From Adhaeribacter radiodurans (GTDB lineage Bacteria; Bacteroidota; Bacteroidia; Cytophagales; Hymenobacteraceae), in the NCBI RefSeq assembly GCF_014075995.1, contig NZ_CP055152.1:62001-126000 (forward strand): a stretch of DNA of 64,000 nucleotides, given 5' to 3'. Positions 42,956 through 51,587 of the stretch are shown piece after piece (the stretch's first letter is position 1; every line of letters begins with the position of its first letter). The translations under genes and the position numbers were made by a program. Below the pieces are notes generated by a model. The model saw only the letters and a program-made list of their open reading frames with translations. It ran no database searches and was not told where the DNA came from.

Positions 42956-43192
42956 TCATAGATTGGTAAAGTGCCAATATATAGGTTGCAAAGAATGGCT
43001 ATTAGAGTGCTGCAAATTCCCTTTTTCAGATAACGAATTATATGTTAAATAGGAAGGGTTTTCTAGCTTTTGTACAATTAATGAATTAATGCTAAAGTAT
43101 TGGTGAAGTTGTAGCATTTGAAAAACGTCCGTTCCAATTAGCTGCAATAGCAAAATAGCGATATATCGTTGAATGCTCCAACCCCCAGCCAT
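42956..43192 (-). CDS. Doubtful 78-residue ORF
   Basis: Reads MAGGWSIQRYIAILLLQLIG and onward without recognisable motif; the composition (many Ser, Leu, Gln, His) is weakly protein-like. It fills the gap between the VOC and SDR genes. It may be spurious. Confidence 0.2.
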   Translation of the reverse strand: MAGGWSIQRYIAILLLQLIGTDVFQMLQLHQYFSINSLIVQKLENPSYLTYNSLSEKGNLQHSNSHSLQPIYWHFTNL

Positions 43193-43224
43193 AATTTCAT
43201 AAACACCCGGTTAGCTGCAGTCCT

Positions 43225-44136
43225 TTATATTTCAAACCTCACACCACTCTCACTTTCCGCATATTTCCATAATTGTTTAGCTAATTCCTTATCGTTCATT
43301 GCCCTGGTGCTGTGTTTAGATAAAGCCGGATAACCCGAATATTCATTCGCTCCATCAGGACCATAAAATTCACCACCCATTACGGATGCGTCTGTAGCTG
43401 CAAAAAGTGAAGGTAATGCACCTTGCCAGGGCTGCATCACTTCATCAAATTCAGCGAACATTCCTTCTAATTGCTCACCGGGAATATGACGTTGTAAATC
43501 TGTTCGTGTAACGCCGGGATGCGAAGCTGCGGAAATCATTTTTAAATCCGCTGCTTTTATTTTTCTGTCTAATTCATAGGTAAACAGAATGTCTGCCAAC
43601 TTGCTTATGGCATAAGACTGCCATGCGTTGTACGGCTTTTCTAATTTCAAATTATCAAAATCAATATTATCCGTTAATGTTGCTGCACCGCTTGAAAGTG
43701 TTACCACACGGGCATTTGAAGCCTTTTTTAATAATGGAAACAAATGTCCTGTTAAAGCAAAATGCCCTAAAAAATTTACCCCAAACTGCAACTCATACCC
43801 CTTATCGGTTTTTGATGCTGGTGGTATCATCACGCCAGCATTGTTTACTAAAATGTCAAGTTTTGAATGTCTATTTTTAAATCCATCTGCAAAAGATTTT
43901 ATCTGAGTAGTATGTGCTAAATTCAGAATGCCGATTTCTAAACTTCCATTTCCTTTTGTAGATGATGTAATCTTCTCAATGGCTACCTCAATTTTATTTT
44001 GGTCTCTTGCAGCAATGGTAACATTTGCTCCTTTTTCATATAAAGCCTTTGCCGTTTCGTAACCGATACCGGTATTTGCTCCGGTTACAATAGCTGTTTT
44101 GCCTGTCAAATCAGGCATATTTTCTTTAGTCCACAT
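43225..44136 (-). CDS. Short-chain dehydrogenase/reductase
   Basis: 303 residues. NAD(P)-binding motif TGANTGIG (18-25), LVNNAGV, and the catalytic SYAISK tyrosine-lysine pair with the upstream Ser (TLSSG). The length and the C-terminal region fit the WW-domain oxidoreductase/retinol dehydrogenase-like branch. Substrate unknown. It is followed upstream by an AhpD-like gene and a Crp-type regulator, a combination suggesting a redox or detoxification unit. Confidence 0.9.
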   Translation of the reverse strand: MWTKENMPDLTGKTAIVTGANTGIGYETAKALYEKGANVTIAARDQNKIEVAIEKITSSTKGNGSLEIGILNLAHTTQIKSFADGFKNRHSKLDILVNNAGVMIPPASKTDKGYELQFGVNFLGHFALTGHLFPLLKKASNARVVTLSSGAATLTDNIDFDNLKLEKPYNAWQSYAISKLADILFTYELDRKIKAADLKMISAASHPGVTRTDLQRHIPGEQLEGMFAEFDEVMQPWQGALPSLFAATDASVMGGEFYGPDGANEYSGYPALSKHSTRAMNDKELAKQLWKYAESESGVRFEI

Positions 44137-44202
44137 AAGTTTGTTATCTAATCTTGTTTATTCACTAGGCCCGATAACCCGAATTCTTTTTCTTTCCAAT
44201 AA

Positions 44203-44232
44203 AAAATCACAGGTCGTTACACCTGCGATTTT
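44203..44232 (-). terminator. Rho-independent terminator of the AhpD-like gene
   Basis: AAAATCACAGGT (44203-44214) pairs with ACCTGCGATTTT (44221-44232) with one mismatch; the minus-strand stem is followed by a T-run. Confidence 0.75.
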
Positions 44233-44246
44233 CTATTAGGATTGTC

Positions 44247-44699
44247 TTATGCCAAACTTTGTCCTATCAGCAGATGGGTGCTTAGTACAACCCTGTTCCA
44301 TAGATTGATGGTAATAACGGCCGTTATAATATCTGCAATTTGTGTTTCGCTAAAGAATTGTAAGGCGTTTGTATAAGTGTCGTCCGCTAATCCATTTTGA
44401 TGGATTAACGTTATCTCTTCCGTGATAGCCAACACTGCTTTTTCTTCTTCCGTAAAAATACCTTCGGCTTCTCGCCAGGCATTCAGCAAAAAAATACGCT
44501 GGGTCGTTTCACCATTTTTAATGGCGTCTTGCGTATGGATGTTGATACAATAGGCACACCCGTTGATTTGTGAAGCACGGATTTTAATAAGTTCTTTGGT
44601 CGTTTTGGATATAGAACACTGTGAAAGATAGGTTTCTAAACCAATCATTGCCTTTAGCGCATTGGGAGCTGCTGCTTTAATGTTGAATCGTTTTTGCAT
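44247..44699 (-). CDS. Carboxymuconolactone decarboxylase family (AhpD-like) protein
   Basis: 150 residues with the AhpD/CMD core CAYCINIHTQDA: redox pair C48/C51 and H55. Such proteins act as alkylhydroperoxidase-like reductants. It sits between the SDR and Crp-type regulator genes, all on the minus strand. Length is typical for a one-domain CMD protein. Confidence 0.9.
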   Translation of the reverse strand: MQKRFNIKAAAPNALKAMIGLETYLSQCSISKTTKELIKIRASQINGCAYCINIHTQDAIKNGETTQRIFLLNAWREAEGIFTEEEKAVLAITEEITLIHQNGLADDTYTNALQFFSETQIADIITAVITINLWNRVVLSTHLLIGQSLA

Positions 44700-44767
44700 T
44701 GCCTAATTCTTTTAAAATTGTTCAATGCAAAGCTGGCAAATGAGAAAATGAAAAATCTTAAACTGGT

Positions 44768-45343
44768 TTAAGAAATACGCTTTTTACGAATTTCACTTAG
44801 ATATTCGGGTGTGAATCCCAAATAGGAAGCGAGTAAGTACTGGGGAATACGTTGTGCAAATTCGGGATACCTTTCAATTGATTGAAAATAAAACTCTTCT
44901 TTGGAAAGGGAGTAAAGATATTTAATACGCATTTGGGCTGCGGCGTAAGCCCGCTGGTAAACAAAACGGAAATAGCGTTCCATACCCGGAAATGCTTTTA
45001 CCAGTTTTTCCTGATTGTCTTGTGTGATACAAAGAATCTTAGATTTTTCTACTGCTTGGATATAAAATTGGGAAGAGATCTTGCGTTCGTAAGCAATGTT
45101 GTCGGTCATCCACCAAGTTTCTATGGCAAATTCGGTGGTTTGTTCCATGCCTTTTTCATTGATGTAAAACTTTCGTAGCAAGCCGCTTAGTACAAAATAA
45201 TGGTGTCTGCAAATTTGTCCTTCCTCTAGTAAGTTTTCTTTTTTAGCTACATCTTTGAGGTCAAAGAATTTTTGAATTTCATCAAATTCATCGTTAGAAG
45301 CTTCTGCGAATTTGTTTATATGTTCTTTGAAAGTATTCAACAT
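44768..45343 (-). CDS. Crp/Fnr-family transcriptional regulator
   Basis: 191 residues. N-terminal cyclic-nucleotide-binding-like beta roll (LLEEGQICRHHYFVLSGLLRKFY) and C-terminal helix-turn-helix (FAQRIPQYLLASYLGFTPEYLSEIRKKR). The typical cAMP-contact residues are not all present, as in many Bacteroidota homologues. It lies upstream of the AhpD-like and SDR genes on the same strand and likely controls them. Confidence 0.88.
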   Translation of the reverse strand: MLNTFKEHINKFAEASNDEFDEIQKFFDLKDVAKKENLLEEGQICRHHYFVLSGLLRKFYINEKGMEQTTEFAIETWWMTDNIAYERKISSQFYIQAVEKSKILCITQDNQEKLVKAFPGMERYFRFVYQRAYAAAQMRIKYLYSLSKEEFYFQSIERYPEFAQRIPQYLLASYLGFTPEYLSEIRKKRIS

Positions 45344-45375
45344 TTGGGCTTTAAAAGTGCTGGTTGTAAGATTGC

Positions 45376-45429
45376 AGGTAACGGACTAGGCTTTGCGGTG
45401 GCGCAGCTACCGTATAGATGTGGTTAGGA
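45376..45429 (-). repeat. attC-like hairpin D
   Basis: AGGTAACGGACTAGGC (from 45376) and GTTAGGA (45423-45429) bound a short imperfect hairpin. It shares AACGGACTwGGC with the next site (46030-46082). The core triplets AAC/GTT fit attC; the rest of the core fits poorly. Confidence 0.4.
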
Positions 45430-45489
45430 GTAGAATTTTTTTTAATTAAGCTTATACTGATCTTTTAACACCTGAATTTGATCGTAATC

Positions 45490-46023
45490 CTAAACTTCCA
45501 GGAGATAGGATGTATTTCCTTTTGAAGTTTCCTCAAATCTTACTTTAGCTAAATACCATTCTTTTAGTATCCTCTTCAAATCTTCCTTGTGTTGCTCTGA
45601 TTTAATCCAAAAGGCAAATTGGTATTTTACATTATTATAAGTGAATTCTAAGTTATTATCCGTACCATTTTTGTAGGTTATAGTCGAGGTCGAAATAACT
45701 TCCTCTCCAAATAGATGTTTGATATCTATTCTAATATCTGTTATTTCATTTAAAGTAAATACAGTTTCACCAACCTGAATGGAGGTTTTACATAGTTTTA
45801 GCTGCTTTTGGAATCTTCCATCTAATCTTTCTTGACCCTGTTTAAAATAGTGCCATTTCCAATAAAAGATAATAGACGTAATAAATGGAATGATGGAGTA
45901 GATAGACCTCAATTCTAAAATATAAAATATTACCACTATTCCGAAAAAGATAAAACACAAAAGCATGTACCTTTCTTCCAGGTAGGACTTATCCTTTTTT
46001 TGATATGTTACACTCTCAAACAT
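45490..46023 (-). CDS. Hypothetical membrane protein
   Basis: 177 residues. Two hydrophobic segments near residues 21-55 (MLLCFIFFGIVVIFYIL and YSIIPFITSIIFYW) are followed by a soluble C-terminal domain resembling PH-like/YcxB-type folds (KTSIQVGETVFTLNEITDI). Lies between attC-like hairpins, as a cassette would. Function unknown. Confidence 0.7.
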   Translation of the reverse strand: MFESVTYQKKDKSYLEERYMLLCFIFFGIVVIFYILELRSIYSIIPFITSIIFYWKWHYFKQGQERLDGRFQKQLKLCKTSIQVGETVFTLNEITDIRIDIKHLFGEEVISTSTITYKNGTDNNLEFTYNNVKYQFAFWIKSEQHKEDLKRILKEWYLAKVRFEETSKGNTSYLLEV

Positions 46024-46029
46024 TTTTAA

Positions 46030-46082
46030 TCCTAACGGACTTGGCTAAGGCACGCCTTAGTGTGCTTTAGGCTTTGTTGGGT
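46030..46082 (-). repeat. attC-like hairpin B
   Basis: TCCTAAC (46030-46036) and GTTGGGT (46076-46082) are inverted core sites around a self-complementary spacer with CTAAGGC/GCCTTAG. On the minus strand it lies immediately downstream of the 97-residue gene, as in integron cassettes. Confidence 0.55.
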
Positions 46083-46137
46083 GAAGTTGTTATTGATTTA
46101 CTTTATCAATTTTAAACTTTCTATTGATGTGTCCTTA

Positions 46138-46431
46138 TTACTTTTTAATTAAAATCCTTCTTACTAACAAATAGAGAGACAATGCCAGAAGCAGCATTGT
46201 CATTAGGCTAAAAATGTACAACCGCTGTTTATCATTGAACACAACTATAAAGATAATCGAAAGTGTGGCAACACACCCAATCAATACCATTACATCTTTT
46301 AAAGAGTAAACCTTAAACTTTATAAGGGCATATATCTTTGCATAAACATAAAATGGTAGCCAAAAAGAAATAAGGACAGATATGTAGAGCAGAGCTTCTG
46401 ATTTAATAATGTCACTTAATGATATTGCCAA
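46138..46431 (-). CDS. Small hypothetical membrane protein
   Basis: 97 residues with three hydrophobic helices (YISVLISFWLPFYVYAKIYALI, DVMVLIGCVATLSIIFIVVF, YIFSLMTMLLLALSLYLLV) and a basic tail. No family recognised. It is bounded by two attC-like hairpins and could be a single-gene cassette. Confidence 0.7.
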   Translation of the reverse strand: MAISLSDIIKSEALLYISVLISFWLPFYVYAKIYALIKFKVYSLKDVMVLIGCVATLSIIFIVVFNDKQRLYIFSLMTMLLLALSLYLLVRRILIKK

Positions 46432-46460
46432 GGCTCTATTATTTTTAAATATTCAGTTAC

Positions 46461-46592
46461 ACCCAACGTTTTGCGGCTTGCCGAAGGCGGGGTTTTTTAG
46501 CACAAAAGTTCAATAGAATTACTACTATTGAACCTTGCAGAAATGTTTAATAGAAGCACTTCAGCCCCGCTTTTGGCAAACCCTTGTTGTGT
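46461..46592 (-). repeat. attC-like hairpin A
   Basis: ACCCAAC (46461-46467) and GTTGTGT (46586-46592) are inverted cores. Inner boxes on the minus strand, GGTTTGCCAAAAGCGGGG and CCCCGCCTTCGGCAAGCC, pair along most of their length. About 132 bases, within the size of long attC sites. Confidence 0.6.
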
Positions 46593-46650
46593 GCTGGGCT
46601 TCTTCGTCAGTCTAAGCTTAATTTATTTCCACGCTGTTTTAAACATAGGA

Positions 46651-46687
46651 AGCCTGTCCAAATTCCTTTACAGAACTTTGACAGGCT
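46651..46687 (-). terminator. Stem-loop after the ABM gene
   Basis: AGCCTGTC (46651-46658) pairs with GACAGGCT (46680-46687), just beyond the stop of the monooxygenase-like gene. T-run is weak. Confidence 0.45.
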
Positions 46688-46713
46688 GCCATTTTATAAT
46701 AATTGTGGTGTAT

Positions 46714-47007
46714 TTATTTAGCCGCTAAAACGTCCAATTTCTCAATAGATGGTGCAGTAGCCAACAATTCAGGTGCATTTTCCATTAACGCCTTTGCAAT
46801 CTTGCCACCAAGATGTGCTTCTCTGCCTTCTTCATCTGAAAAAGTGTCAAAAATGCCAAATGTAGAAGCGTCAATACGGAACGCATACCATGTAATAGTA
46901 CGCGCTTCTTCATTAGCAAGTGGCAATGCACTTGTAATAAACTCTTCAACATTTTTTTCTTTTCCACGTTTTGCTTCTAGTCGAACTAATAATCCTAATT
47001 TTTTCAT
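46714..47007 (-). CDS. ABM-domain (antibiotic biosynthesis monooxygenase-like) protein
   Basis: 97 residues with the ABM ferredoxin-like pattern: LGLLVRLEAKRGKEKNVEEFI ... TITWYAFRIDASTFGIFDTFSDEEGREAHL. These small dimeric proteins oxidise quinol-like or other substrates without cofactors, or act as YgiN-like quinol monooxygenases. The AraC regulator gene is directly upstream, so it may be the regulated target. Confidence 0.85.
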   Translation of the reverse strand: MKKLGLLVRLEAKRGKEKNVEEFITSALPLANEEARTITWYAFRIDASTFGIFDTFSDEEGREAHLGGKIAKALMENAPELLATAPSIEKLDVLAAK

Positions 47008-47107
47008 GTCTTTTTAATTCTAAATTAAAACAATTTTCTTTTAACAAATGTAGCTCATTTAAGATTGTGAGGCTTTTTTATTTAGTTCAAAAACTTATGA
47101 AAAAAGG

Positions 47108-47968
47108 TCAAGTTTTCATAATGTTTTTTGGACTGTAACCAAATTCATTTTTAAAGGCTGTGCTAAAATTTGATAAGCTGTCATAACCAAAGTCCATATA
47201 GATTTCTGATGGTGTCGCTTCATTATTAAGCAATAATTTTTTGGCTTTGTTGAGCCGTTTTAGTTGAAACCATTTTCCTGGAGACTCTTGATATACTTGT
47301 ATAAATTTTCGCTTAAAAGTAGACAGGCTCATATTGCATAGAAAAGCGACCTCATCAATATTCAAACTCGTGTACAGATTTTTTTCAATGACCATTTTAA
47401 AAGATAATTCTCTTTCATTGATTAACAATGAATGTAGATAAACAAAAAAAAATTGCCCATACTTATCAGCCAGATACAGCATAATTTCTTCAAATTTCAA
47501 TTCCAGAATCTTTTGAGAGATTGTTTGATTCAAGCCATGAATTTGTTGAATAGAATTAATAAAATGCATAATAAAATTGTCTTTTTCTATAAGGAAATAA
47601 GGACTACTGGTGGCTGCTTTATTAAAATCATTTGGGTTAAATAAATGCCCATATTTCAATAAAAAATTATTAATGTTTTTTTGAGAAAAGAAAAAGAGTA
47701 GGCAACTATAACTATTTGCCCCTATAATTTCTGTTGTTAAAAAATTTCCCGATGCAAGGAGTAAGGATTGTGTATCATCTATCGAAACGATGTCATTTGA
47801 AAAGTGAATGTTCTTTTGTCCGTCCAACAAAAAACTGAATACATTTTTGTTTAGGTTAATCTTATTTTTGGAAACATGTTTATACACTTCGTAGTTAGTA
47901 ATTTGTAGGTCTGATGTCTCCGTGTAGTTATTTTCAAATAAATGTTCTGGAAAATTTGTAATGTCCAT
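47108..47968 (-). CDS. AraC-family transcriptional regulator
   Basis: 286 residues. The C-terminal ~95 residues hold the double helix-turn-helix: LNIDEVAFLCNMSLSTFKRKFIQVYQESPGKW and the second helix with FGYDSLSNFSTAFKNEFGYSP. The N-terminal half is a small ligand-binding-like domain. It lies 100 bases upstream of the ABM gene on the same strand and probably controls it. Confidence 0.9.
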   Translation of the reverse strand: MDITNFPEHLFENNYTETSDLQITNYEVYKHVSKNKINLNKNVFSFLLDGQKNIHFSNDIVSIDDTQSLLLASGNFLTTEIIGANSYSCLLFFFSQKNINNFLLKYGHLFNPNDFNKAATSSPYFLIEKDNFIMHFINSIQQIHGLNQTISQKILELKFEEIMLYLADKYGQFFFVYLHSLLINERELSFKMVIEKNLYTSLNIDEVAFLCNMSLSTFKRKFIQVYQESPGKWFQLKRLNKAKKLLLNNEATPSEIYMDFGYDSLSNFSTAFKNEFGYSPKNIMKT

Positions 47969-48069
47969 AATATTGTTGTCTTAAAAAACATTTTGGTATG
48001 GCAAACATATTAATTTTTATTTCAAAAATTGTTTGCTAAAGTTTGGATGAATAGGTCGTTTAGCCTTGC

Positions 48070-48131
48070 ACACAACGGCTCTGCTAAACGACGGTTGAGG
48101 CCGTCGGCCGAGACTGACGTTTAGGTTTGGT
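48070..48131 (-). repeat. attC-like hairpin C, interrupted by the intron
   Basis: ACACAAC (48070-48076; GTTGTGT on the minus strand) and CTAAACG / CGTTTAG arms form a hairpin whose other core (AGCTAAC on the minus strand) is restored only when the intron is removed, joining 48131 to 49979. On the minus strand it lies directly downstream of the gene ending at 49978. Confidence 0.55.
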
Positions 48132-49978
48132 GTGTGCCCAGCATGGCACGGGTAATATTTCGAAAGAAAGATACTCAGATTATCCAGAGGGTGCAAGTCC
48201 CTTATCGGCGAGTTGGTGCAGCCGATTAGTAAGCCGCAAGGTGGTTGGAGGTAACTCCAGCATTGAAGGAAGCGGGACTACAAACTTCTGAACGGACGAA
48301 CAGAAACGGCATAAGAGGCACCGAGTCGTGGGTAAGCAAGCACCTCTTTGTAAAGCCCTTGACCAACAAACGACTTGGTGTAGATGCCGCTGGATTAGAA
48401 GGAAGGATAAGTGTCTTACCTGGGGAGGTCTCCCCACTACGGGTTAGCTAGGGAGAAGTCAGCAGCGGCCATAGTAGTCACGGGAAACGAGCCGTAAGCA
48501 CTACGGAGGTCTCACCACGTGATGAAGGGCCAAACGTTAAGTTTGTTCCCAATGTGGTAAGGAGGCGAGTCCAGTCTTACCTTAAGCGGAACAAGGATTA
48601 CCCTTAAAGTAGTAAGATGATTGAGAAAGTACTCCACCGGGGCAACCTGCTCCAGGCTTACCGCCAAGTGCGGGCCAACCAAGGTTCGGCCGGGGTGGAC
48701 GGTATGCCCGTGAGTAGATTAGCCGCATACCTGCAAGTCAGCAAAGATCGGATTGTCACGGCTATTGCGAATGGCAGCTACCTTCCTCAGCCCATCTTAG
48801 GAGTAGAAATACCCAAGAGCAACGGTCAGAAACGCCTGTTAGGCATTCCCACCGTCACCGACCGGCTGCTGCAACAGGCGGTAAACCAAGTCATCGCGCC
48901 CTTGTTTGAGCTGGCGTTCAAACCCTACAGCTACGGCTTTCGCCCCAATCGGAATGCCCAGCAGGCAGTATTGCAGGCTCAGAAGCATATCCATGCCGGT
49001 TACCAGCATATCGTGGACATGGATCTGAAAAGCTTCTTCGATGAAGTAGATCACTGCCTGCTCTTGCAACTGGTATACCGCAAGGTTAAATGCCCGCTCA
49101 CCCTGCGCCTGATCCGCAAATGGTTGCGGGCTCCTATGCTTATCCAGGGAAAGCTAACCAAACGCCGCAAAGGGGTACCGCAAGGCAGTCCGTTGAGCCC
49201 GCTGCTCTCCAACATCCTGCTCCACGAACTGGATAAAGAGCTGGAAAAGCAAGGCTGGCGGTACGTGCGCTATGCCGATGACTTCAGTGTTTACACCAAA
49301 AGTGAAGCAGCAGCCCGACAGGTGGGCAACAGTCTTTTCCTGTTCCTGAAAAACAAGTTGCGATTACCCATCAATCGGGAAAAGAGCGGCATTAGACGAC
49401 CAGTAGATTTCCAGATACTAGGTTACCGGTTTGTGCCCACTTACCGGAAAGGGGACAAAGGTAAATACCAGCTGGTGGTGGCCGAAAAGGCTTGGGTTAA
49501 GCTCAAACAAAGTCTGAAAGCCATTACCCGCAAAACCACACCCAGTACCTTTGAGGAGCGTATGGAGCAACTCAAAGAAGTGCAGCGGGGTTGGGTCAAC
49601 TACTTCCGTTTGGCTAGTATTCAGGGAAAGTTAAAAGAAGTGGATAGTTGGTTACGCAACCGGCTGCGCCATTGCATTTGGCATGACTGGAAGAAACCCG
49701 AGCGGAAAAGAAAGAACCTGATACGGCTAGGTGTTCCGGCGGGACAGGCTTACGCCTGGAGCCGGACCCGGAAGGGCGGCTGGGCGGTGGCCCAAAGTCC
49801 GATGCTGGGGACTACCATTACCCTCCAGCGACTGGTAAAGAGGGGATATGAATCGTTGCTCGATTACTACAAGAAAGTAGCTCTACAACTTAACGAACCG
49901 CTGTATGCGAGACCCGCACGTACAGTGGTGTGAGAGGCGCTCCCTGCTACCTATCGGTGGCAGGGCCGTCTACTCGAT
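48132..49978 (+). mobile_element. Group IIC-type intron
   Basis: The 5' end reads GTGTGCCCAGCATGG, the usual start of class C introns, followed by GGGTGCAAGTCCC. Domain V lies at about 49898-49928 (CCGCTGTATGCG ... CGCACGTACAGTGG) with a CGC triad, as in group IIC. Domain VI and the 3' end follow (CTACTCGAT, ending AT at 49977-49978). Length 1847 bases. Group IIC introns prefer hairpins such as terminators and attC sites, and this one sits in an attC-like hairpin. Confidence 0.85.
48617..49933 (+). CDS. ltrA: Group II intron reverse transcriptase/maturase
   Basis: 438 residues. RT motifs in order: GVEIPKSNGQKRLLGIPTVTDR, YSYGFRPNRN, DMDLKSFFDEVDH, KGVPQGSPLSPLLSNI and the active site YADD (219-222). 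The maturase domain X follows (LQRLVKRGYESLLDYY at the C-terminus); no En endonuclease domain, as expected for class C. The last codons overlap the intron's domain V, because the frame has no earlier stop. It would splice its own intron and reverse-transcribe it at the target. Confidence 0.95.
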   Translation: MIEKVLHRGNLLQAYRQVRANQGSAGVDGMPVSRLAAYLQVSKDRIVTAIANGSYLPQPILGVEIPKSNGQKRLLGIPTVTDRLLQQAVNQVIAPLFELAFKPYSYGFRPNRNAQQAVLQAQKHIHAGYQHIVDMDLKSFFDEVDHCLLLQLVYRKVKCPLTLRLIRKWLRAPMLIQGKLTKRRKGVPQGSPLSPLLSNILLHELDKELEKQGWRYVRYADDFSVYTKSEAAARQVGNSLFLFLKNKLRLPINREKSGIRRPVDFQILGYRFVPTYRKGDKGKYQLVVAEKAWVKLKQSLKAITRKTTPSTFEERMEQLKEVQRGWVNYFRLASIQGKLKEVDSWLRNRLRHCIWHDWKKPERKRKNLIRLGVPAGQAYAWSRTRKGGWAVAQSPMLGTTITLQRLVKRGYESLLDYYKKVALQLNEPLYARPARTVV

Positions 49979-50424
49979 TAGCTGACGAGATTCTTTAATT
50001 GATAATCGTAAAAACTTCTTGCTTCTTCTTTCGCGTTCTCGTTAATATTATCTGAAATACTTATCTGACGGAGAAGTTCAATGTTTTCATTTTTCTCTTT
50101 TGGGTCTGATAAAGAGTTAATTATTCTATTTAACATCAGCACACTCAAAACAGTTGGCTCCCTTTTTAGAGATAAATACAGTTGCTCTTCATATTGTCCA
50201 TCGAAAGTCTCTAAAGTATGCACAATTGTACCAGGTGCCCCAAAGTCAACATCAGGATAATTTTCCATCAATTCAAATAATGAAGGTATTACTAAATGGG
50301 CATCCTCATTCTCGAACAGGTCTTCCAAGATGTTGTCCAAAAGTATATCGTTACTTTCAGGTGCATCTTCATCAACAGGTATAAACCTCTTCAACTCTTC
50401 TATTATTTCTACTGTTTTCTTCAT
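49978..50424 (-). CDS. Small acidic helical protein (cassette-like)
   Basis: 148 residues, strongly acidic (VDEDAPESNDILLDNILEDLFENEDAH) and helical, like immunity or HEAT-type small proteins. Its stop codon shares one base with the intron end; without the intron the stop is restored by the upstream base, so the gene is intact. Function unknown; an immunity-protein role is possible. Confidence 0.7.
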   Translation of the reverse strand: MKKTVEIIEELKRFIPVDEDAPESNDILLDNILEDLFENEDAHLVIPSLFELMENYPDVDFGAPGTIVHTLETFDGQYEEQLYLSLKREPTVLSVLMLNRIINSLSDPKEKNENIELLRQISISDNINENAKEEARSFYDYQLKNLVS

Positions 50425-50885
50425 TTTGTTGGCAGCTAACTAGCGGATAAACGGAGTTGTTCCGGTTATCTGCACTATGGCTGGAGTAGGAATACCTGCT
50501 TTCAGGAGGCTTGTAAGGGTGTTTTTACTAGTTAAAGTGGCTTGTTTCATATTATAAGTAATATATACAATATTCTCCAATTATCCTGCCAGCTCCACTT
50601 TTTCTTTCCCAAATAACTTTTATCTGAAATGAATTCTTTCTTTAGAGTTGATAGGCTCCTTAAAACGACTATTTGTAATCAATAGGAAAGGTATTTCAGA
50701 CTAAAAGAAGGGAATATATGGGTTGTACTTGGTCTTTTTAGAAGCCTTAGCCGATTAATAAACGGTTATAAACGTTTATATCCGTTTATAACCGTTTATT
50801 AATCGGCTAAGTAGCCTTTTCAGGAGGGAGTACGATGCTGTTTACTAAAGAAAGTTGCTTTTTAGTCCTAAAATACGTTGACCAT
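50425..50885. other. Intergenic region left of the recombinase element
   Basis: No ORF supported. It contains a 66-base near-perfect palindrome (50746-50811) listed separately. Confidence 0.5.
50746..50811. repeat. Perfect 29-base-arm palindrome
   Basis: Arms 50746-50774 and 50783-50811 are exact reverse complements with an 8-base spacer (TTTATATC). The arms contain repeated AAACG/TTTATA units. It lies 75 bases left of the outer repeat of the recombinase element. Confidence 0.9.
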
Positions 50886-51026: not shown

Positions 51027-51587
51027 ATGAAAATAGGTTACGCTCGGGTCAGCACCCAGGACCAAAAATTAGAACTGCAATTAGACGCTCTCACCCGGCA
51101 GGGATGTGAGCTGGTGTTTCAGGAAAAGAAATCAGGTAAGAACAAGGAACGGCCGGAGCTGGAGAAATTGCTGGGTCAACTTCGGTCCGGCGATACGGTG
51201 GTGGTGTGGAAGCTAGATCGGCTGGGTAGGTCCTTGCGCGATTTGATTGACCTGGTAGCCGAGTTTCAAAGTAGGGGAGTAGACTTCGTGAGTTTACAAG
51301 ACGGCATCAACACGGCTACTTCCACTGGTCGATTTACTTTTAACATCTTTGCTTCTTTAGCCGAATTTGAACGCGAGATTATTAAAGAACGAACCAAAGC
51401 AGGCTTAGTGGCAGCCAAAGCTCGCGGCCGAGCAGGAGGGAGGCCTAGTGGTTTGACACCCGAAGCCATGGAAAAAGCCAGGTCCGCGAAAGTTCTTTCC
51501 GAATCAGGTAAGCGAGCAGAGGAGATTGCTAAGATACTGGGTATCTCTCGAGCTACTTGTTACCGTTATCTTGGATTGACATTTTAA
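51027..51587 (+). CDS. Serine recombinase (resolvase/invertase)
   Basis: 186 residues. IGYARVSTQDQ carries the nucleophile Ser9, VWKLDRLGRS and FNIFASLAEFERE are the classical catalytic and E-helix motifs, and the C-terminus has the helix-turn-helix GKRAEEIAKILGISRATCYRYLG. The typical size of Hin/Tn3-type resolvases. It is the first gene inside the left end of the element at 50886-60673, preceded by the dyad that recurs at the right end, so it probably acts on those sites. Confidence 0.93.
   Translation: MKIGYARVSTQDQKLELQLDALTRQGCELVFQEKKSGKNKERPELEKLLGQLRSGDTVVVWKLDRLGRSLRDLIDLVAEFQSRGVDFVSLQDGINTATSTGRFTFNIFASLAEFEREIIKERTKAGLVAAKARGRAGGRPSGLTPEAMEKARSAKVLSESGKRAEEIAKILGISRATCYRYLGLTF

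Follow-up and report, generated by a model that had tools for sequence, protein, structure and literature searches.

The window analysed here, a stretch of 64,000 nucleotides, covers positions 62001-126000 of contig C1 of Adhaeribacter radiodurans (Hymenobacteraceae), whose genome consists of two contigs: C1, a 136-kb plasmid of 136,251 bp, and C2, the 6.8-Mb chromosome. Between about 43.1 and 50.44 kb its minus strand carries an array of five gene cassettes. Judging from sequence, and with a probability of roughly 0.85, we read this as an orphan array: it would belong to a Hymenobacteraceae system that resembles integrons and has a tyrosine recombinase other than IntI as its integrase. A sequence-only reading of the same DNA had proposed an integron-like cassette array without an integrase at 45376-49980, which is the middle part of the array. 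This proposal is now supported by matches to a covariance model, by the complementarity of cassette starts and ends, by a differing locus in the plasmid of Adhaeribacter swui and by a cassette shared across genera.

Along the minus strand the array runs from site E through cassette 1, site D with an intron, cassette 2, site C, cassette 3, site B, cassette 4, site A and cassette 5 to site F. The features are given below in this order, in window coordinates. Bit scores refer to R2, a covariance model of 41 short sites from relatives that contains no window sequence and whose structure was set by hand; a slash marks the crossover point, and complementary runs include the core.

50440-50470, minus strand: attI-like site E (GATAA, hairpin, CTAG/TT), the upstream end of the array and its border with the plasmid backbone.
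49979-50439, minus strand: cassette 1, with a 148-residue gene at 49978-50424; start G/TTAGCTG, end CAGCTAAC, 8-nt complementarity.
48068-48131, remainder at 49979-49986, minus strand: attC site D; R2 60.1 bits, E 1.2e-12 (match 48070-48137).
48132-49978, plus strand: group II intron within the R'' core of site D, opposite to the cassette direction; reverse transcriptase (RT)/maturase at 48617-49933.
46467-48075, minus strand: cassette 2, with an AraC-type regulator (47108-47968) and a 97-residue protein (46714-47007); start G/TTGTGTGC, end GCACACAAC, 9-nt complementarity.
46460-46594, minus strand: attC site C, long type; R'' 46586-46594, R' 46460-46467.
46036-46466, minus strand: cassette 3, with a 97-residue gene at 46138-46431; start G/TTGGGTG, end CACCCAAC, 8-nt run.
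46029-46083, minus strand: attC site B; R2 32.7 bits, E 1.9e-5 (match 46030-46082).
45382-46035, minus strand: cassette 4, with a 177-residue gene at 45490-46023; start G/TTAGGAT, end TCCTAAC, 7-nt run.
45374-45429, minus strand: attC site A; R2 22.0 bits, E 0.012 (match 45376-45429).
43093-45381, minus strand: cassette 5, with three genes on the minus strand, a cyclic-nucleotide-binding regulator (44768-45343), a carboxymuconolactone decarboxylase-like gene (44247-44699) and a short-chain dehydrogenase (43225-44136); start G/TTACCTGC, end GCAGCTAAC, one mismatch, 4-nt run.
43093-43218 (about), minus strand: site F, long type; 3' core without a clean GTT, left border approximate.

Four hairpins, A to D, had been described by the sequence-only reading, and they lie where it placed them, with AAC and GTT cores, in one orientation and each 3' of a minus-strand gene. 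The sequence it saw in two of them, AACGGACTWGGC, is indeed carried on the plus strand by both A and B. A supposed fifth hairpin from 49979 is instead the other half of D, cut by the intron; sites F and E had been missed. As for gene content, the regulator of cassette 2 is AraC by Pfam, and its 97-residue neighbour has no Pfam match at 1e-3; a homolog of the latter is annotated as an antibiotic biosynthesis monooxygenase.

In an integron cassette the first bases (TTRRRY) and the last core (RYYYAAC) derive from one circular cassette. Complementarity is therefore expected across the gene and not inside the hairpin. When G/TTNNNN of each window cassette is compared with its own NNNNAAC, cassettes 1 to 5 agree in 4/4, 4/4, 4/4, 4/4 and 3/4 letters. 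This total of 19 out of 20 is equalled by 2 of the 120 ways of pairing the five starts with the five ends. Taken alone the closure in the window is modest evidence, and the weight rests on closure in relatives. There, 90 of 109 consecutive pairs close in all four letters; the same holds for 37 of 775 pairs that are not adjacent and for 7 of 146 comparisons within one hairpin. The set comprised 149 of 156 R2 matches, after three minus-strand mirror matches, three over-long ones and a truncated one had been dropped; a further three lacked an exact AAC or GTT, leaving 146.

The covariance model points in the same direction. Among the relatives' sites, eight of the nine pairs of the R2 L stem show changes on both sides, and the covariation score of this stem is 0.310 versus 0.117 in shuffled data (0 of 500 as high), a signal that is lost on sliding the partners. 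Applied to 134 kb of the plasmid, R2 places D, B and A at the top, followed by 16.1 bits for D on the other strand and 15.1 bits for noise. The attC identity suggested by the sequence-only reading is thereby accepted for D, B and, weakly, A; R2 has no match at C, which is of a longer type. Sites resembling C at 65-96% identity occur in 7 of 20 relatives' loci as a recurring element of ~137 nt, and the type of site F recurs both in relatives and on the organism's own chromosome. At E<=0.1 R2 has no match in four IntI arrays, in R46 or in 40 kb of the own chromosome. Another model, R1, derived from 30 trimmed attC sites of IntI type in other Bacteroidota classes, found no window site; since the class 1 attC of R46 escaped it as well, it is uninformative. 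Regular-expression scans for RYYYAAC and GTTRRRY were dropped as too strict or too noisy.

Where, then, is the integrase? In the Hymenobacteraceae relatives Pontibacter, Rufibacter and Adhaeribacter, arrays begin just downstream of a tyrosine recombinase of ~480 residues, here called the array integrase. The type of site E occurs once per array, at the upstream end, at nine loci (the window and the A. swui plasmid counted), and it is also found 3' of the integrase in relatives. At four of the nine (L101, L110, L112 and L114) the recombinase gene, encoding 480-555 residues, runs in the cassette direction and ends 85-105 bp before E. The stretch AGTGC.GATAA, hairpin, TAG/TT, as read by eye, is conserved 3' of the integrase at most loci, though not evident in L156, L157 and L164, and it matches window E. 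A scan of named genomes yielded 44 loci, of which 41 are full-length matches, in Pontibacter, Rufibacter, Adhaeribacter, Sabulibacter and Nafulsella. R2 gives 156 matches at E<=0.01 at these 44 loci, 153 of which lie on the integrase strand. Beside the 41 full-length matches, 145 sites are found in 184.9 kb downstream versus one in 306.7 kb upstream, and at least one site is present in 30 of the 32 integrase loci with at least 1 kb of downstream sequence. In 83 of the 90 closed cassettes the longest open reading frame has the same strand as the integrase, and the median gap between sites is 510 bp. Across 150 family genomes, integrase and sites occur together in 63, the integrase only in 3, sites only in 12 (this genome included) and neither in 72. 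Plasmid-borne copies of the integrase with attC sites are carried by Pontibacter kalidii (L231, NZ_CP111080) and Rufibacter tibetensis (L232, NZ_CP012644), both on mobilizable plasmids.

There are also traces of movement. Matches to window positions 43090-48131 occur in 85 of the 150 family genomes, and many short ones pile up on A, B, C, D and F. When the six window sites were searched by BLAST against 20 relatives' regions, sites were found in 19, with up to 17 per region and one orientation in each. A genome from a different genus (G368) carries cassette 2, AraC regulator and 97-residue gene together, at 93% identity along 1,662 nt. This homology runs from 48123, inside D, to 46465, at the CGTT of site C, so its edge falls at the crossover. 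The nearest named relative at the array locus is the A. swui plasmid, which has in common with the window the backbone up to 50439 and, at the other side, site A (96%) with its left flank; the genes in between differ. Conserved gene order in relatives, which the sequence-only reading had named as a sign of ordinary operons, is thus not seen here.

By its sequence, the array integrase is not IntI: it forms a clade of its own and lacks the I2 insertion. HxxR follows the catalytic K motif at a distance of 59 residues in all 36 array integrases compared (proteins with in-frame stops excluded), as opposed to 101 in IntI1 and in 26 of 26 IntI proteins from other Bacteroidota classes; this difference indicates that I2 is missing. 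The organism's own Xer proteins have 67 and 65. Array integrases score 201-210 bits with TIGR02249 (cut-off 265), in two stretches, 208-214 bits with NF040815 (XerA), below its cut-off of 220, and 186-194 bits with XerC and XerD. In a 32-row tree, in which long branches were flagged, array integrases and IntI fall into separate groups, each with support of 99/99. An AlphaFold model of an array integrase (475 residues, pLDDT 81.7) has XerA as its best match and IntI (2a3v) at rank 7.

In the A. radiodurans genome itself no array integrase was found, the best match being Xer-like at E 1e-31. The strongest alternative, improbable all the same, starts from here: the window would be an ordinary cluster of attC sites lacking integron-integrases (CALIN) that belongs to a classical IntI integron and is served in trans, for example by an IntI-like gene on the chromosome (C2:4434734-4435630; L001:1435-2424). 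This gene exceeds the TIGR02249 cut-off (283.6 versus 265 bits) and is the genome's one match, and other classes of the phylum often possess IntI (108 of 395 sampled). When aligned to Vibrio cholerae IntI (2a3v), however, it has exchanged R for K, lacks the K region and has Y and L in place of two H, most of its catalytic residues being lost; no cassettes were seen in its neighbourhood, and from its sequence it is probably a dead integron integrase. Moreover, IntI is present at E<=1e-60 in only 1 of 390 genomes of the order, namely this one, and the lack of R2 matches in IntI arrays and R46 also counts against this alternative. The IntI-like integrase that the sequence-only reading expected elsewhere in the genome is hence not the likely partner of this array, as arrays in relatives adjoin the non-IntI recombinase.

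Less probable still is that the units were shuffled by the group II intron together with homologous recombination, or by the serine resolvase beside E. It is true that the attC site occupied by the intron is not the same in the window as in A. swui and that both plasmids have the resolvase next to E; yet arrays such as L101, L110, L112 and L114 have no resolvase upstream of E and a tyrosine recombinase in its place, and closure at G/TT requires precise cutting at the core. A last alternative takes the hairpins for transcription terminators, or for repeats scattered among ordinary genes. It would fit their GC-rich sequence, their position after genes and their many copies across the family, but it is very improbable: it does not predict complementarity across the cassette rather than in the hairpin (90/109 against 7/146), sites beside the integrase lie downstream (145 versus 1 upstream), and the A. 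swui locus differs.

Several observations weigh against the reading as an orphan array of a Hymenobacteraceae system. The long sites C and F escape R2, and A reaches an E of only 0.012; the closure of cassette 5 contains a mismatch, and F is not clearly delimited. Eight of the 41 full-length integrase loci are without an R2 site, mostly ones with little downstream sequence, and two (L156 and L157) lack one despite more than 1 kb downstream. The Fisher p of 1e-25 for co-occurrence of integrase and sites ignores phylogeny. In addition, some training loci of R2 overlap the 44 test loci (L101=L149, L113=L160, L114=L130, on the same contigs), so the R2 counts at these loci are not independent of training; closure and the matches in the window are unaffected.

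How might such a system work? A cassette would comprise an attC-like site and one to a few genes and would enter or leave by one crossover at the G/TT of the R' core; the integrase gene would lie just upstream of attI and share the direction of the cassettes. On this plasmid attI and cassettes remain while the integrase would have been lost, a loss that may have frozen the array, and a group II intron has since entered and split one attC. The sequences show the sites with their conserved structure, the closure, attI, the linkage to the integrase in relatives and its absence from this genome; from them we infer that the array integrase catalyses cassette exchange. The attC would be used as a folded single strand, because R'' and R' vary freely yet stay complementary in the circular cassette, because the L stem covaries and because R'' would be superfluous in a core site used as a double strand.

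Set beside IntI integrons (class 1, superintegrons and the Bacteroidota IntI arrays L053, L054, L055, L058 and L060), the system has many of the same parts: attI, attC with R and L boxes, the G/TT crossover, small one-gene cassettes in one direction and a tyrosine recombinase by attI. It differs in that its integrase lies outside the IntI clade, is devoid of I2, has an N-terminal extension and is transcribed towards attI. In relatives attI stands beside the integrase; the window has attI and no integrase. With at least two attC sites by the R2 model and no functional integrase in the genome, the window resembles a CALIN as outlined in the portions of PMC9024848 and PMC9668308 used here, except that the proper integrase of its array would not be IntI. 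XerA and other Xer recombinases (NF040815, 4a8e, 5hxy) come closest, in family and in fold, to the catalytic half of the array integrase, which nonetheless scores below the curated cut-off, is linked to cassette arrays and has a long N-terminal extension. In the section consulted, a 2026 report on Riemerella anatipestifer describes aph(3')-IVb and a 140-bp downstream attC-like fold inserted site-specifically and free of homology, with no integron found and no known mechanism (PMC13148043). Riemerella likewise belongs to Bacteroidota and the inserted unit is a gene with an attC-like downstream segment; the difference, as far as that part of the report goes, is that no integrase was identified there.

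Published accounts of I2 bear on the proposed mechanism. Excerpts of PMC7790495 describe this helix as necessary for cassette capture, as conferring single-strand recombination and as occurring in no other protein. Single-strand use by an enzyme without I2 would conflict with this view, at least as worded in those excerpts; either such recombination of cassettes evolved along a different path, or an integrase can do without I2 on folded attC. Beyond this, we tentatively suggest, at somewhat less than even odds, a second integron class that spans Bacteroidia, in which a Xer-like, non-IntI integrase recombines folded single-stranded attC without I2 and N-terminal HARP/XPB-like modules read the hairpin. 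Such a class could explain the homology-free gene uptake in Riemerella, in so far as that section of PMC13148043 describes it. Searches keyed to IntI would overlook such arrays across a broad group of environmental bacteria. In the parts consulted, the IntegronFinder 2.0 survey (PMC9024848) lists complete integrons for Bacteroidetes proper in Salinibacter ruber only. We found no published description of such an integron-like system in the open-access literature, subscription journals and preprints lying outside the scope of the search.

The N-terminal extension of the array integrase consists of two repeats. Its top seven rows in VIA-align are XPB N-terminal domains, with Z of 5.6-6.8 and rmsd of about 2, which is below the tool's trust level; SMARCAL1 HARP follows at Z 3.7. 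Foldseek returned no row at E<=0.001, and an hmmsearch of the N-terminal alignment against PDB sequences gave nothing meaningful. Pfam HARP has no match in the Hymenobacteraceae array integrases and reaches 14.9 and 11.2 bits, far below its cut-off of 25, in two of six distant homologs. Both HARP and the XPB domain bind DNA that is branched or distorted. On the structural model, it is possible that the extension substitutes for I2, which we regard as a lead. Among tyrosine recombinases of Bacteroidia (L191-L210), N-terminal W..K.W..P repeats are seen, two or three of them in L192, L204 and L205, and these are weakly HARP-like.

A class-wide system in Bacteroidia is likely, though not established. 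A profile of 20 integrases matches 168 of 345 Bacteroidia genomes at E<=1e-60, mostly over residues ~105-476 or in the catalytic half only. Of 16 such regions, 9 contained closed pairs in a strict closure test, with 20 pairs in 131 kb altogether, and there were none in a control of 220 kb without sites; strand comparison is no control here, closure being symmetric. In the window itself the strict test gives no closed pair. R2 has 16 matches at E<=0.1 in 20 class-wide regions, 15 of them on the integrase strand (strands compared by eye), and the K-to-H spacing is 59-60 in the 12 measured of 20 distant homologs. A phage collection contained distant integrase matches only, in two records of one phage.

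The group II intron in site D is the sole match of an Rfam scan of the window (48245-48530; RF02001 115 bits, RF01998 38.5 bits), and its RT/maturase scores 377.6 bits with TIGR04416 (cut-off 300). Its ends at 48132 and 49978 were set by comparing intron copies; the A. swui copy splits site A, not D. Group IIC-attC introns are described, in the passages of PMC7923331 drawn on here, as lying in the attC core, opposite to the cassettes, with a 3' exon that begins T(T)RRRY. The window intron is like them in its ribozyme and RT/maturase, its insertion in the R'' core, its orientation opposite to the cassettes and the T(T)RRRY start of its 3' exon. Its host array is of a new type, and by site and domains it is a candidate member of the IIC-attC group. 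Related introns whose 3' exons begin TTRRRY-like are found in a Tenacibaculum finnmarkense plasmid (L018), in Chryseobacterium (L016) and in Persicobacter (L017), and the Tenacibaculum region holds two in succession. The Tenacibaculum introns suggest that cassette arrays exist in Flavobacteriia too.

On the whole genome R2 has 17 matches at E<=1, and with 15 of them on the chromosome, orphan cassettes are not confined to the plasmid. The chromosomal matches on C2 stand singly or in small groups, for example at 1477696/1478196, 3262222/3262723, 5621340/5626992 and 6063956/6065148.

Upstream of the integrase at L101, L110, L112 and L114 lies a small divergent gene of Zn-ribbon type, judged by its cysteines. 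The A. swui plasmid keeps this gene (L015:7490-7798; DUF2116 23.8 bits, below the cut-off of 26.8) though its integrase is gone. In the window, the position held by the array integrase in relatives is taken by the serine resolvase:

51027-51587, plus strand: serine resolvase.

Between the resolvase and attI lies an inverted repeat at 50746-50818 (TAGCCGATTAATAAACG...), which is common to the A. swui plasmid and is a probable res site.

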